DNA from: Chryseobacterium gleum
GTDB lineage: Bacteria; Bacteroidota; Bacteroidia; Flavobacteriales_D; UBA2798
Assembly (NCBI GenBank): GCA_945865695.1
Contig: CAMBFX010000004.1
Span: 1 to 48,191 of the forward strand
Direction of reading: 5' to 3'
DNA length: 48,191 bases
In this document: piece after piece, positions 7,076-13,408 of the stretch
How positions within the stretch are numbered: position 1 is the first letter of the stretch
How the letters are laid out: the number at the start of each line of letters is the position of its first letter
Program-made: the position numbers and the translations under genes
The notes under the pieces: generated by a model
Seen by the model: only the letters and a program-made list of their open reading frames with translations
Databases searched by the model: none
What the model was told of the DNA's origin: nothing

Positions 7076-7148
7076 GAATTTATTTGCGATGAATAGCAAT
7101 TTCAAAATATCTAAACTTATCTCCTTGACGAACGTAAAACGTAGTACT

Positions 7149-8630
7149 ATGAAAACAACACTTTTTTCAGCAGCTTTGGCAGCATTGATTCTGTCTTCCT
7201 GCGGTAGCCATGCAAAGTACATCACTTTTGATGATGATGATGATGTATATTCTCAGCCAGGACGTGATGAGGCAAAAGCCGAGCGCAAAAGAACTGAAGA
7301 GAAAAAGAAAATCGAAGAAGAAGCTTATAACGGTTTCGGAGCTGATGACTATTATGATCCACGTGAAGCAGAAAGAATTTCAACTACTAGTTCTTCTACT
7401 ACTAGTTCTTCTACTACAACCACAGATGATTATTATGATCCTAACTATTCGAATAGTAATATGAATGGTAATTATAATTACAACAATAATTATTATAATT
7501 CTCAAAACGGCTATAATGGTTACGGTAATAACGGATATGGTTACGGATACGGGAATAATTGCTGTAATAATGGATATTACGGAAGTAACTATTACGGAAA
7601 TTCCTATGGAAATGGTTACGGGAATAATTATTATGGTAATGGTTATGGTTATGGAAATAACTATTATGGTAGTGGTTATGGAAATGGTTTCGGGAATAAT
7701 TATTATGGAAATAACTATTATGGAAACGGATACGGTTATGGAAACAACTATTATGGAAATGGTTGGGGAACTGGTTTAATGTTTGGTTTCGGAAATGGAT
7801 ATGGAAATAATTATTATGGAAACAACAACGGTTGGGGAAATAATAATAACGGTTACGACAATAATAATTCCAATGCAAATTATGGACACCGCGGAAGCAG
7901 TTCTACCAATAGCACTTCTGGTTCTACTTATGGTGGAAGAAGTGAAAGTGATTATGATGTGATTACTTATGCTTCAGAAAATCGTTCTGCAACTTATACT
8001 ACAAATTCAAAACCGGGAACATTACTTTCTGCTAATGCAAATAAAGTATCTGGAATTCCAGTTCATGTAACAACTGTTTCTACTAGTGATAATTCAGTTG
8101 TTTCAGTTAGTAGTAAAGATATTTCTCCAACAGTTGGTTCATTTTACTCTAATAATGAATCTGGTTCAACATTTACTAGATTGAATAAAGTGGATAGAAA
8201 TGATAACACTCAAACTTCTGCATGGTCAAAAGACAGACCAAGTTATTCAGGAAATACTACATCTAATTCCACTTATACAAATACCAATTCATCAAGTGGA
8301 ACTTCAAAACCTCGTTATGAAAATAACTATTCAAACGGAACAACTTCAGGAACTAATTATGGAACTACATCTGGATCAACAACCGGTTCGGCAAGAAGTG
8401 ATAATTACAATTCTTATTCTGTAAAAGGAGATAATTCTTCTAATAGTTCATCTGGTTCTTATTCTGGTGGAGCTTCATCATCAGGTAGAAATTCTGGCGC
8501 AACTATTAATACTGGCGGAAAATCTTCTGGTTCTTCTTCATCAGGAGGAAGTTCTTCAGGCGGACGTTCTGGTGGAAGTTCTGCAGGAAGCAGTTCAGGT
8601 GGAAAATCTTCAGGTGGTGGTAGAAGATAA
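7149..8630 (+). CDS. Low-complexity Gly/Asn/Tyr-rich lipoprotein
   Basis: 493 residues with a lipoprotein signal peptide (ALILSSC, Cys18). In order: an Asp run at residues 28-32, a charged coiled-coil-like segment (residues 40-60), Ser/Thr repeats, then about 150 residues (roughly 98-244) made almost only of Gly, Asn and Tyr in degenerate repeats of NNYYGNGYGYG. A central segment of ordinary composition (around residues 270-350) follows, then a Ser/Gly/Thr-rich tail ending in repeated SSGG units and GGGRR. A Cys pair at 138-139 interrupts the repeats. It is presumably anchored in the outer membrane and largely disordered. ATG 7149 is chosen over 7089 because it gives the correct lipobox distance. 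It is 12 bp upstream of a FadL-type porin gene and probably co-transcribed with it. I know no function. Confidence 0.85.
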   Translation: MKTTLFSAALAALILSSCGSHAKYITFDDDDDVYSQPGRDEAKAERKRTEEKKKIEEEAYNGFGADDYYDPREAERISTTSSSTTSSSTTTTDDYYDPNYSNSNMNGNYNYNNNYYNSQNGYNGYGNNGYGYGYGNNCCNNGYYGSNYYGNSYGNGYGNNYYGNGYGYGNNYYGSGYGNGFGNNYYGNNYYGNGYGYGNNYYGNGWGTGLMFGFGNGYGNNYYGNNNGWGNNNNGYDNNNSNANYGHRGSSSTNSTSGSTYGGRSESDYDVITYASENRSATYTTNSKPGTLLSANANKVSGIPVHVTTVSTSDNSVVSVSSKDISPTVGSFYSNNESGSTFTRLNKVDRNDNTQTSAWSKDRPSYSGNTTSNSTYTNTNSSSGTSKPRYENNYSNGTTSGTNYGTTSGSTTGSARSDNYNSYSVKGDNSSNSSSGSYSGGASSSGRNSGATINTGGKSSGSSSSGGSSSGGRSGGSSAGSSSGGKSSGGGRR

Positions 8631-8642
8631 AATCATTCGCTG

Positions 8643-10124
8643 ATGCGAAAAAATATCTACATATCATTTATAGCCTGTTTGCTATTTTCTAATTTTTCAT
8701 TCTCACAAAACGAAACAGATGCTTTACGTTATTCTTGGATTGGAACAGGAGGAACAGCGCGTTATCAATCTTTAGGTGGAGCAATGGGCGCTATAGGCGG
8801 AGATCCATCTTGTATGGCCATGAATCCTGCTGGATTGGCTCGATTTACAAAATCAGATTTCACGATTTCATTCGCACAATCAACTATCAGCACTTCTACA
8901 CTTTATAATGGAACAACTACCAATAATGGAAAAGGAAATTTTACGATAAATAATATTGCCTTAGTTGGCGCCACAAAAAGCAGTGAAGATTCAGAATGGA
9001 AATCGGTACAATTCGGAATTGGATTTCAAAAGCTTTTTAATTTCAATAATTCTATTTCGATGTCGGGATATAGTCCAAATTCATTATTAGATCAGTTTGC
9101 AGGAGATGCGCACGGGGTGGATCCAACTGCCTTAGGTGATGTTTTACCTTATACCTCAATGCTTGCCTATCAAACGTATTTAATAGATCCAGATCTTACT
9201 TCAACAGATGATTCTTATACCACACAAACATTTAACGATACCGTTTTTCAATCGAGGTATATCAATAAAAAAGGCGGATTGAGTGAAATGAATATTTCCA
9301 TCAGCGGAAATTATTTGGATAAAGTTTATTTAGGAATGAGTATTGGGTTTCCTTTTATTAGATACTCTGAAACTTATTCTCATCACGAAGAGGTAACTGA
9401 TACCACTCTCTTCTTGCAAAATTTTGATTATACCCAAGATTTATATACACGCGGAAACGGAGTAAATTTAAAACTAGGTGCCATTTATACGCCTACCGAA
9501 TGGTTGCGATTAGGATTGGCTTTACAAACTGCTTCCTCCATTGGTTTAACGGATGAATGGAGCAATACGATGCAATCGCAATTTGATAGCAATATTGCTT
9601 TTGATACTACTTCGCCCAATGGATTATTTAATTATCGATTAAGAACTCCAGGAAGAATAACTGCGAGCGCTGCTTTTATTATTTCTAAATGGGGATTGGT
9701 TTCTGTAGATTATGAATATTTAAATTACGGTAAAGCAAAATTCAAACCCGATAATTTTAATGGCGGTGGTGGCTATTCTTTTGCCTCCGAAAATTTAGTG
9801 ATTAAATCTATTTACAATACAGCATCTAATTTACGTGTTGGTTTAGAGGGAAGATACAATTGGGTGAGTTTACGAGGAGGAATTTCTATTTACGCTAATC
9901 CATTTAAAGATGAAGATGGAATAAATGCAACCACAGTAGATGCCACACGCATCACCTACTCGGGTGGATTAGGATTTAGAATGAAAGGATTTTATGCCGA
10001 TTTAGGATATTCCATCACCCAATGGAACGAAGCTTATTTTATGTTTGATCCTTTATTGGTAAATACCGCCAATATCGAAACAAACTTCAAACAGTTTGTG
10101 GTGACGGCAGGGTTTAGGTTTTAG
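8643..10124 (+). CDS. OmpP1/FadL-family outer-membrane protein
   Basis: 493 residues: signal peptide (cleavage after SFSQ, about residue 22) and a predicted outer-membrane beta-barrel. The N-terminal YSWIGTGGTARYQSLGGAMG and AMNPAGLAR segments are the conserved start of Bacteroidota OmpP1/FadL/TodX-type transporters, which in other phyla move hydrophobic compounds. Alternating aromatic beta-strands continue to a C-terminal Phe (TAGFRF), a typical barrel end. The substrate is unknown. It lies 12 bp after the low-complexity lipoprotein gene. Confidence 0.85.
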   Translation: MRKNIYISFIACLLFSNFSFSQNETDALRYSWIGTGGTARYQSLGGAMGAIGGDPSCMAMNPAGLARFTKSDFTISFAQSTISTSTLYNGTTTNNGKGNFTINNIALVGATKSSEDSEWKSVQFGIGFQKLFNFNNSISMSGYSPNSLLDQFAGDAHGVDPTALGDVLPYTSMLAYQTYLIDPDLTSTDDSYTTQTFNDTVFQSRYINKKGGLSEMNISISGNYLDKVYLGMSIGFPFIRYSETYSHHEEVTDTTLFLQNFDYTQDLYTRGNGVNLKLGAIYTPTEWLRLGLALQTASSIGLTDEWSNTMQSQFDSNIAFDTTSPNGLFNYRLRTPGRITASAAFIISKWGLVSVDYEYLNYGKAKFKPDNFNGGGGYSFASENLVIKSIYNTASNLRVGLEGRYNWVSLRGGISIYANPFKDEDGINATTVDATRITYSGGLGFRMKGFYADLGYSITQWNEAYFMFDPLLVNTANIETNFKQFVVTAGFRF

Positions 10125-10149: not shown

Positions 10150-10560
10150 ATGTCACGTTATTTACTTTTAATTTCTGTAATTTTTCTTTTCTCTTGCAAA
10201 AAAGATAAACTGAAAGACGATAAAGAAATATTTATTGGGAACTGGAAGTGGGTTTATTCGATCAAGAGTGAAAGGTTTGCTTGTGATAATCCGGCAGTGA
10301 TTACTATTTTAAACCCAACAAGTGTAGGAGCAGATTATTATCTTGATTTTAATAAAAAGGGCTGTGCTACTTTCTACCAAAACACAGAAAAAAAGGAGAA
10401 ATATAGGCTTGTTTTTACTGCATGGGATTTCGGCTTAAATCCATATACCAATTATTACACCTTTGGAATTCGATTGGATAATGATGACAAGGAAGTGTTT
10501 GACGGTTATGTAAAGTCCGACACCTTGATTGATCGGGGTAAATCCGAATCCTACGAGTAG
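10150..10560 (+). CDS. Small lipoprotein, C-terminally truncated paralogue
   Basis: 136 residues, starting with a lipoprotein signal (FLFSCKKDK). It is clearly paralogous to the product of 10759-11226: both have SCKKD.LK.DK.IFIG.WKW, NPTS.G..Y, Y.FGI..DN and a KSDTLI/KNDTLI segment. The similarity stops right after that segment (about position 10530). The last residues, DRGKSESYE, come from reading a T9SS sorting-domain sequence in the wrong frame. The paralogue has about 25 more residues with a CPCC motif here. So this is a broken copy that may still be translated as a shortened lipoprotein. Function unknown. Confidence 0.7.
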   Translation: MSRYLLLISVIFLFSCKKDKLKDDKEIFIGNWKWVYSIKSERFACDNPAVITILNPTSVGADYYLDFNKKGCATFYQNTEKKEKYRLVFTAWDFGLNPYTNYYTFGIRLDNDDKEVFDGYVKSDTLIDRGKSESYE

Positions 10561-10762
10561 CTTAGTAAAAGTCACATTAAAAAATCAAATACAAGAAAAA
10601 TACAAGATATATTTAGTTGACAATAAAGGATCCTTAATTGAATCCAAGGATTTGTCTGGTGAATTCGTTATATTTGATATGACATCTCTTGAAAAAGGAA
10701 TTTATTTTATCATTTTAGAAGTAAATACCAAAAGAACGATTAAGAAAGTAATAAAAACATGA
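10529..10762 (+). pseudogene. Remnant T9SS C-terminal sorting domain
   Basis: In the +1 frame relative to the lipoprotein upstream, this segment encodes a complete Por-type (type A) sorting domain: GVNPNPTSSLVKVTL at the start, a Y-I-L-V-D-N-KG turn, and a SLEKGIYFIILEV strand before a basic end (KKVIKT). There is no proper start codon and no secreted protein body in front of it, so it cannot work alone. Its stop overlaps the ATG of the next lipoprotein by 4 bp (ATGA). It reads as the tail of a lost T9SS cargo gene, fused out of frame to the lipoprotein by deletion. Confidence 0.8.
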
Positions 10763-11226
10763 AGAAAAATATTATTTATCTCCTAATTATTTTTTCTCTT
10801 TTCTCTTGCAAAAAAGATAGACTAAAAGGTGATAAGGCAATTTTTATTGGTAAGTGGAAATGGATTTATACCAAAACACTACAAAATAGTTGCGGGGGTG
10901 GTTCGCAATATTATACTTATAATGACCCAACTTCAGAAGGGTTAAATTATGAGATTGAATTTCTTAAATGCGGCAAAGTTATTTATTATGAGAATGGGGA
11001 AAAAACAACAAAAGACAGAATTGTTTTTGAAAGATTCGCTCCATCAACTTCCAGTTTATGGAACGATTACTATTCGTTTGGTATTGACGGTGACAATAGA
11101 GACGAAAAAGCAATTGACGGATTAATTAAAAATGATACATTAATACTTATTGGCAACACAAAATGGCCTCATTTTAATGAGGTATGTCCTTGTTGTACTG
11201 GATATATTTATTTCATAAGAGAATAG
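10759..11226 (+). CDS. Small lipoprotein, intact paralogue
   Basis: 155 residues, lipoprotein signal peptide with SLFSC. The body begins KKDRLKGDKAIFIGKWKWIY, and the C-terminus has VCPCCTGYIYFIRE. It resembles lipocalin-like small Bacteroidota lipoproteins (a WKW-containing first strand followed by short beta-strands), but I cannot assign a family. It is the intact counterpart of 10150-10560. The next gene, a T9SS-secreted protein, starts 7 bp downstream, so the two probably form one transcriptional unit. Confidence 0.75.
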   Translation: MKKNIIYLLIIFSLFSCKKDRLKGDKAIFIGKWKWIYTKTLQNSCGGGSQYYTYNDPTSEGLNYEIEFLKCGKVIYYENGEKTTKDRIVFERFAPSTSSLWNDYYSFGIDGDNRDEKAIDGLIKNDTLILIGNTKWPHFNEVCPCCTGYIYFIRE

Positions 11227-11232
11227 AATAAA

Positions 11233-12489
11233 ATGGATTTCATTTCTTCACTTCTGCTTTTTTGTATGTTGATTTCTTATAATTCAGCATCTGGTCAAGA
11301 ATGGCGAAAATATGACGAAACTAATTCAAGCTTAGGAAACTCATATGTTAGAGATATAGTTATTGATTCAAATGGAGTTGCTTGGCTCGGAACTTCAGAA
11401 GATTTGTTTAGTTTTGATGGATTAAACTGGAATCATTATACTATAAATGTTACAAATTCAAATCCAAACATTACTTATGTAGAGGATATGTGCTTATTGA
11501 ATAATAATGATATTTTAATTGGAACCTCATACGGAATTTGCATTTTTAATACACTAACTAAAACTGTTGATTATTCACTTAATTCAAATATTCCATTTAG
11601 TCATATAGAATCTGTTGGGCAATCAGATGATGGAATAATTTGGATTGGTGAAAGTGTAACAGGGGGAAGGATAGCCTATTTTTCAAATTATTCCTGGGCG
11701 ACATTTCAAGCATTTGGTTCCTCTGAAACTATCTATGCCATGACTAATAATGGAAATGAAATGTGGTTTGGTTCAGGTTCAGTGAAGAAATATGATAATG
11801 GAATCTTCACTCAATATTATTATGGAAACAGTCCCATCACTCAGGGGGCTTTAACAAGTGCTCTCGCTTTTGATCCAGATGGCAATTTATGGCTGGATGC
11901 TCCGAGCAATGCAGTACCAACTATTTATCGATTAATGAAATTTGATGGAATCAACTGGTACGAATATGATACATTAAATTGCGTAATTGATGGCTCCCAT
12001 ATTCAAGATATTTACCATATGGATTCTGTGATTTGGTTCTCATTACAATTTCAAGGTGTAGTTGAATTTAACTATTATACAAATGAATGTAATTTTTATG
12101 ATGAAAATAATAGCCCAATTTCTTCTTATAATTTTGGTGGCTTAGTAAAAGATGATAATGGGAATATTTTTATTGGTACAAGTTCCGGTTTGATAATTTA
12201 TAATGAGGATAAAATTATCATCGATGCTTTTAAATATACTGATCTTTATATTTATCCTAATCCCTTTGACGAACTAATCAATTTGCGATTTTTTGCCGAA
12301 ACCGATCAAAATATTTTAATTTCAATTTATAATGAAATTGGCCAAATCGTGTATTCTTCTTCTGTTGAAGTATCTTTTGGTAAAATTGATTACCCAATAG
12401 AAATAGGCAATTTCGAACGTGGAATTTATATACTGAAATCACAAATTAACAATCAAATGGTGACTGAGAAATTAATGAAAATAAATTAA
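11233..12489 (+). CDS. T9SS-secreted protein with Reg_prop-like propeller repeats
   Basis: 418 residues. The signal peptide ends near SASGQ. Several repeats of the pattern VRDIVIDSNGVAWLGTS..LFSFDG (also DPDGNLWLDAP and KDDNGNIFIGTSSGL) match two-component-regulator propeller (Reg_prop) blades. The last about 80 residues, from LYIYPNPFDELINL to MVTEKLMKIN, are a type A T9SS sorting domain, so the protein should be exported through the type IX system and attached to, or released from, the surface. No enzymatic domain is seen. Preceded at 7 bp by its lipoprotein partner; followed by a terminator. Confidence 0.85.
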   Translation: MDFISSLLLFCMLISYNSASGQEWRKYDETNSSLGNSYVRDIVIDSNGVAWLGTSEDLFSFDGLNWNHYTINVTNSNPNITYVEDMCLLNNNDILIGTSYGICIFNTLTKTVDYSLNSNIPFSHIESVGQSDDGIIWIGESVTGGRIAYFSNYSWATFQAFGSSETIYAMTNNGNEMWFGSGSVKKYDNGIFTQYYYGNSPITQGALTSALAFDPDGNLWLDAPSNAVPTIYRLMKFDGINWYEYDTLNCVIDGSHIQDIYHMDSVIWFSLQFQGVVEFNYYTNECNFYDENNSPISSYNFGGLVKDDNGNIFIGTSSGLIIYNEDKIIIDAFKYTDLYIYPNPFDELINLRFFAETDQNILISIYNEIGQIVYSSSVEVSFGKIDYPIEIGNFERGIYILKSQINNQMVTEKLMKIN

Positions 12490-12637: not shown

Positions 12638-13408
12638 TTAATTTGCTTTCGGATCCGCGTTAATCGCTTTATCCACCAAAATTCTTCCGCAGTGCTCACA
12701 AACTGTTACCTTTTTGTGCATACGAATGTCTAACTGACGTTGTGGAGGAATTTGATTGAAACAACCACCACAAGCATCACGCTCAACAGCAACAACTGCT
12801 AATCCGTTTCTTGCATTTTTACGTAATCTATGGTAAGCTTTAATTAAACGTGGTTCAATTTTAGCTTGCGCAGCCGCTGATTTATCAATTAAATCTTGTT
12901 CTTCTTTTGAAGTTTCGTCAGTGATTTCTTGCAACTCTTGTCTCTTCACTTCAAGATCTTTCTTTCTTTCAGTTAAAGCTTCCTTTGAAGTAGCCACAGA
13001 TTCGGTTTTAAAACCCATTTGTGCTTTGAATTCTTTAATTTTCTTTTCTGATAATTGAATTTCTAATGTTTGGAATTCAATTTCTTTAGAGAGTGAATCG
13101 TACTCACGGTTATTTCTAACTTTCACTTGTTGCTCTTCGTATTTTTTAATCGCTAATTGCGATTCTTTCATTGCGTTTTTACGATCGGTAATTCCGTTTT
13201 CAAGATCAGCCAATTCTTGTTCGATTCTTTCAAAACGAGTTTCCAAACCTGCAATTTCATCTTCCAAATCTTGAACCTCGAGTGGTAATTCTCCTCTAAC
13301 CGTTCTGATTTTATCAATTTGAGAATCGACTAATTGAAGGTTAAATAATGCTTTTAATTTTTCTTCTACTGAAGTCGCATCGATCTTCTTATCTGCCACT
13401 TTTGCCAT
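12638..13408 (-). CDS. C4-type zinc-ribbon coiled-coil protein
   Basis: 256 residues. Residues about 15-185 form a long two-stranded coiled coil rich in Glu, Lys and Leu. The C-terminus carries a zinc ribbon with paired cysteines CGGC and CEHC, separated by about 20 residues. This is the CT398/CdsZ-like family; the role in most bacteria is unclear (nucleic-acid binding or scaffold functions have been proposed). It is cytoplasmic. The gene starts 3 bp after the nif3-like gene, so the two are an operon, a pairing that recurs in many bacteria. Confidence 0.9.
   Translation of the reverse strand: MAKVADKKIDATSVEEKLKALFNLQLVDSQIDKIRTVRGELPLEVQDLEDEIAGLETRFERIEQELADLENGITDRKNAMKESQLAIKKYEEQQVKVRNNREYDSLSKEIEFQTLEIQLSEKKIKEFKAQMGFKTESVATSKEALTERKKDLEVKRQELQEITDETSKEEQDLIDKSAAAQAKIEPRLIKAYHRLRKNARNGLAVVAVERDACGGCFNQIPPQRQLDIRMHKKVTVCEHCGRILVDKAINADPKAN

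Follow-up and report, generated by a model that had tools for sequence, protein, structure and literature searches.

Polysaccharide utilisation loci of Bacteroidota provide a described case of enzyme-lipoprotein neighbours, in which lipoprotein genes, such as those of the DUF1735 lipoproteins, stand beside genes for secreted enzymes (PMC11216935). In Capnocytophaga, the motif of surface-exported lipoproteins (LES) is C-X-K-(D/E)2, located after the lipobox cysteine (PMC5080379). DUF5060-domain glycoside-hydrolase-like proteins have been solved (9gmj, 9gpc), and T9SS type A sorting domains are described by PF18962 and TIGR04183. Bare T9SS sorting domains are easily mistaken for small secreted proteins or for relics of a neighbouring gene. 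In the literature searched, no description was found of an operon combining an S74-like gene, a glycosidase-like cargo and tandem lipoproteins, and nothing directly relevant was found on T9SS-lipoprotein toxin/immunity pairs, lipoprotein gene conversion in Flavobacteriales, or DUF5060.

The locus studied here lies in a 48,191-nucleotide stretch of Chryseobacterium gleum DNA (the window), and its features are collected in the table below. Our findings suggested that the region is likely a relocated, mosaic piece of an operon that recurs in Flavobacteriales and runs from an S74-like surface protein through a ~930-aa T9SS cargo to one or several small lipoproteins. Rearranged leftovers of such an operon would have been inserted between a FadL-like outer-membrane gene and a zinc-ribbon gene.

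Table. Features of the locus, in window coordinates.
Feature	Start	End	Strand	Remarks
Inserted block	10125	12507	.	Between the outer-membrane protein gene, which ends at 10124, and the terminator preceding the zinc-ribbon gene; right edge approximate
Lipoprotein A	10150	10560	+	3' end truncated; lacks the last beta-strand and the YFVRE end
Orphan T9SS sorting domain	10529	10762	+	77-codon frame; PF18962; assigned as the 3' end of a ~930-aa cargo gene
Junction, lipoprotein A remnant / cargo 3' end	10531	10539	+	DNA alignment with the C236 lipoproteins
Segment common to window and contig C236	10625	10841	+	Cargo tail and lipoprotein leader; 91.7% DNA identity
ATGA overlap	10759	10762	+	Cargo stop and lipoprotein B start; from sequence
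Lipoprotein B	10759	11226	+	Intact; lipid-box Cys17; predicted small beta-rich barrel-like domain
Inferred recombination breakpoint (approximate)	10843	10843	+	Inside lipoprotein B; divergence step vs C236 lipoprotein 1
Propeller gene	11233	12489	+	T9SS cargo with two-component-regulator-type propeller repeats; PF07494 (Reg_prop) and PF18962
Terminator	12508	12539	.	Common to the block and the convergent zinc-ribbon gene

The block, ~2.4 kb from the stop of the outer-membrane gene to the terminator, is an insertion between two genes that are otherwise adjacent. These flanks, the FadL-like gene (8643-10124) and the zinc-ribbon gene (12638-13408), converge directly on each other in three related genomes (G001, G002 and G025, comprising both same-family genomes and one of another family), with 50-58 bp between them and a hairpin at the corresponding position in the relatives' sequences. 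The initial annotation had proposed a tandem duplication of a two-gene unit at this site, a claim that the empty site in these three genomes contradicted. A search for target-site duplications or inverted ends of the block returned only 9-bp AT-rich chance matches, and a search for a promoter before it gave no signal (14 promoter-like sites vs 16.2 expected). Further upstream in the window, positions 7089-8630 encode a 513-aa low-complexity protein rich in Gly, Asn, Tyr and Ser with no Pfam match; a similar gene also precedes the FadL-like gene in relatives.

The two lipoproteins of the block share ~40% protein identity, and their genes are 84% identical over 77 bp (10181-10257 / 10793-10869), the only DNA-level duplication found within the block. 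Lipoprotein B carries all features of the family, namely the lipobox Cys, a K/D-rich tether, a GxW motif and a C-terminal Y[FI]xRE strand, the last of which is missing from lipoprotein A. Similarity of lipoprotein A to its relatives stops at about 10531-10539, the final ~nine residues being unrelated, so that the earlier description of a broken paralogue held up. Lipoprotein A is a dead-end stub; nearest to it are lipoproteins 2 and 3 of contig C236 of the same assembly (type 2/3), while the leader of lipoprotein B is of type 1 of the same contig. The AlphaFold2 model of lipoprotein B reached a pLDDT of 88.9 and a pTM of 0.80. The lipoproteins gave no match above cut-off in Pfam or NCBIfam, their profile matched no solved structure, and in a structural search made with regard to lipocalin-type barrels, the best PDB matches were diverse small barrels at an E of 0.005 or worse, with TM <=0.4 by query length. 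Lipoprotein B probably functions as an envelope lipoprotein of the type usually found with a secreted enzyme.

The intact lipoprotein and the T9SS propeller gene that follows it were both present as previously annotated, in direct adjacency, at a distance of 6 bp instead of the 7 bp given before. The two probably belong to one transcript. No close paralogue of the propeller gene was found, and it is a separate T9SS cargo, located here 3' of lipoprotein B.

The orphan frame between the two lipoproteins scored 43.5 bits against PF18962 (cut-off 27) and 35.6 bits against TIGR04183, confirming the earlier view of a bare sorting domain left over from a larger secreted protein. A TGA at 10526-10528 shuts the frame directly upstream, the first codons already fall inside the domain, and both an N-terminal Sec signal peptide and a cargo body are missing. 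Because it has no signal peptide, the orphan domain cannot be exported, and it is not usable as a T9SS substrate; translational coupling to lipoprotein B is the most that it could show. The four-base overlap of the orphan domain with lipoprotein B had been missed in the initial annotation, and by this overlap the two belong together, revealing here the source gene of a bare sorting domain.

The orphan domain had been read as the second member of a duplicated lipoprotein-propeller unit, a claim that comparison of the sorting domains (CTDs) did not support. Its best match was the C-terminus of a homologous cargo in G002, at 36% identity over 78 aa (E=8e-11), whereas it was 21% identical to the sorting domain of the propeller gene (E=0.002), which was absent from the 64 matches with E<=1 that the orphan domain gave in its own genome. 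The alignment of lipoproteins and sorting domains suggested earlier bore out the duplication for the lipoproteins and failed for the sorting domains. By these alignments, the orphan domain is what remains of the C-terminus of a ~930-aa cargo, the partner that the lipoprotein usually has upstream, and does not stem from a second propeller gene. A parent cargo was not found in the assembly, where the cargo search gave only the cargos of contigs C6 and C7, and upstream of the orphan domain lie lipoprotein A and the FadL-like gene instead of an S74-like gene and an intact cargo. The last 46 codons of the orphan domain recur at C236 with 6 synonymous and 6 nonsynonymous changes (dS 0.25, dN 0.06), which may reflect constraint on the domain or divergence before it was orphaned.

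A 19-sequence lipoprotein profile was searched against 399 genomes of the order, and relatives were found in 58; the cargo profile matched in 174. This survey exposed a recurrent operon of an S74-like surface protein, a glycosidase-like T9SS cargo and tandem small lipoproteins, the name S74-like being a label for the common C-terminal region of proteins that matched no Pfam family. The order S74-like protein, cargo, lipoprotein(s) was observed at C6 and C7 of this genome and in G002, G043, G104, G336, G233, G011, G090 and G304. At C6 and C7, the lipoprotein lies directly 3' of T9SS proteins of 931 and 919 aa, with overlaps of 4 and 11 bases. When the first lipoprotein per cluster was taken, a cargo or cargo remnant stood directly upstream with overlapping ends in 11 of 36 clusters, and the sorting domain-lipoprotein B pair of the window comes in addition. 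The overlap was -4 (ATGA, as in the window) in seven clusters (C236, C6, G002, G043, G336, G233 and G166) and -11, -16, -16 and -26 in four others. A ~930-aa DUF5060/glycosidase-like T9SS protein was the directly upstream, overlapping gene at nine other loci. Two further clusters of the 36 had a T9SS gene <430 bp upstream, with one small gene between in G011 and a different T9SS gene at 422 bp in G279.

A T9SS gene downstream of the lipoprotein, the adjacency that the initial annotation suggested seeking in related genomes, occurred in 2/36 clusters, the window and C7, both in this genome. The suggestion that lipoprotein and secreted protein work as a pair stood in so far as the pairing recurs; its order and partner did not. 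It is reasonable to regard lipoprotein and T9SS gene as a recurrent pair in which the partner is the upstream cargo. Many family lipoproteins in the 36-cluster survey stand without a cargo, and therefore the partnership is not obligatory. The cargo itself has solved DUF5060 proteins among its relatives (E 2.5e-35), and both glycosidase-type Glu positions align, so that it looks like a glycosidase-like secreted enzyme, with catalysis suggested by these residues. A fold of the 931-aa cargo predicted from four sequences reached a pLDDT of 41.8 and was not used.

Recurrent loss of the cargo body, in which the overlapping tail and the lipoprotein are kept, is indicated by the cases in G011 and G166. 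In G011, an intact set of S74-like, cargo, 119-aa, lipoprotein and outer-membrane genes is followed by a second set in which the cargo consists only of a 97-aa sorting-domain frame, 47% identical to the same domain of the neighbouring cargo. In G166, the cargo is cut to 188 aa before the lipoprotein and adjoins an IS200-type transposase; in G336, a transposase gene of similar kind lies next to a lipoprotein truncated at its 3' end. The locus in G011 (L182 754-7098) also showed two extra operon genes, one 119-aa lipoprotein-like and one of ~195 aa, both repeated behind the remnant. The transposase genes beside truncated cargo or lipoprotein in two genomes were of the IS200 (Y1) type (L178 6551-7183; L180 7774-8343).

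Contig C236 is the counterpart of C6, with flanks 90% (RNA-binding-protein genes) and 92% (radical-SAM gene) identical. It lacks the S74-like gene, cargo and lipoprotein of C6 and holds instead a 46-codon sorting-domain tail followed by three lipoproteins (tail-lipo1-lipo2-lipo3). The body of its first lipoprotein is 59% identical in amino acids to that of C6, vs 30% to lipoprotein B. Between lipoprotein B and C236 lipoprotein 1, divergence rises from 9% to 56% at about 10843, and at third positions from 0.14 to 0.58, a step whose statistic was reached by 0/2000 shuffles. As selection on the protein is not expected to give such a step at third positions, recombination inside the lipoprotein B gene would be the natural reading. 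Within C236, the leaders of lipoproteins 2 and 3 are 98% identical and their bodies 70%. C236 may instead represent a sister strain captured in the same bin (contamination 2.83%), in which case the exchange would be inter-strain and not intragenomic. Both of these lipoprotein loci are preceded by three to four tandem small RNA-binding-protein (RRM-like) genes (L113 1430-2543; L009 1-883), and a ~580-bp deletion disrupts the radical-SAM gene found 3' of the lipoprotein at C6, an intact copy being present in C236 (L113 7327-7725; L009 2604-3668). In another genus, six tandem family lipoproteins were observed in G021 (L103 6010-9488), of which those at 7329, 7818 and 8306 are mosaic, with near-identical first parts and differing second parts.

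The join between the lipoprotein A stub and the cargo tail had been explained by one deletion, which is possible, and a junction formed by tandem duplication or by recombination is equally compatible because the order at C236 is a tail followed by three lipoproteins. A tandem-duplication junction of tail-lipo1-lipo2 would produce the succession seen here (type 2/3 stub, tail, type 1), and a plain deletion yields the same sequence. A simple deletion in an ancestral lipoA-S74-cargo-lipoB arrangement, eliminating at once the end of lipoprotein A, the S74-like gene and the body of the cargo, would make the same operon assignment as the preferred reading, without carriage by recombination. It would produce the observed junction in one step, and cargo-body loss is seen in G166 and C236; however, a family lipoprotein stands directly upstream of S74-cargo genes at no surveyed locus, and C236 points to an exchange of tail and leader and not to deletion alone, leaving simple deletion a possible but somewhat unlikely origin. 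The original proposal, in which a lipoprotein-propeller unit was duplicated and one deletion joined what is left of lipoprotein A to the first propeller copy's CTD, accounts for the gene order lipo-CTD-lipo-propeller, and C7 does have a T9SS gene of propeller type that follows its lipoprotein at a distance of 242 bp. We consider it highly improbable, given the low identity of the two CTDs, the restriction of DNA duplication to the lipoproteins, the rarity of downstream T9SS genes, the empty site in relatives, and the overlap of the CTD with lipoprotein B, as in cargo genes at other loci.

A mis-join of two loci at 10531-10539 during assembly would be conceivable in a draft genome of 264 contigs with several paralogues. 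However, the 105 bp around the junction had no other match in the genome, leaving no repeat within the assembly to cause such a mis-join, and the join of sorting domain and lipoprotein leader is independently present at C236; an artefact is accordingly very unlikely. As to function, the T9SS cargo might be an antibacterial effector and the tandem variable lipoproteins its immunity proteins, orphaned after cargo loss. Arrays of two to six lipoproteins with variable bodies, and their retention where the cargo body is lost, are in line with this idea, but the cargo resembles a secreted glycosidase with apparently conserved catalytic-type Glu positions, it matched no toxin family, and many lipoproteins are solitary, making a toxin-immunity role improbable.

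Under the preferred reading of a relocated mosaic operon fragment, recombination or duplication that moves or re-leaders a lipoprotein would carry the cargo sorting domain along, since the cargo gene's 3' end immediately precedes the lipoprotein leader, and bare sorting domains would result. A more specific and rather doubtful proposal is that the cargo 3' end and lipoprotein leader act as a recombination handle, by which homologous exchange would swap lipoprotein bodies between loci in a manner resembling antigenic variation, with orphan sorting domains as footprints. If true, diversification of envelope lipoproteins would be tied to a T9SS-secreted enzyme. The sharp leader/body mosaic among the operon's lipoproteins is a testable candidate mechanism of diversification.

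The locus can be placed beside several known systems. The Capnocytophaga LES motif differs from the sequence found here, C-K-K-D-R/K-L, which has a single acidic residue, and the motif of this organism may be different. Orphan-immunity arrays of polymorphic toxin systems likewise keep tandem variable small genes after a large upstream gene is lost; here, however, no toxin domain was found, and the conserved part exchanged is the leader with the tail of the upstream gene. The ~930-aa cargo of intact operons aligns with the solved DUF5060-domain proteins over DUF5060 and barrel, including both acidic positions, whereas the window retains only the C-terminal sorting domain. Like T9SS type A proteins, the orphan frame has a full-length sorting domain with a PNPT start; unlike them, it stands without signal peptide and cargo body. 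As in polysaccharide utilisation loci, a small envelope lipoprotein gene lies beside the gene of a secreted enzyme, but the lipoproteins described here fall outside Pfam and NCBIfam families and are tandemly amplified.
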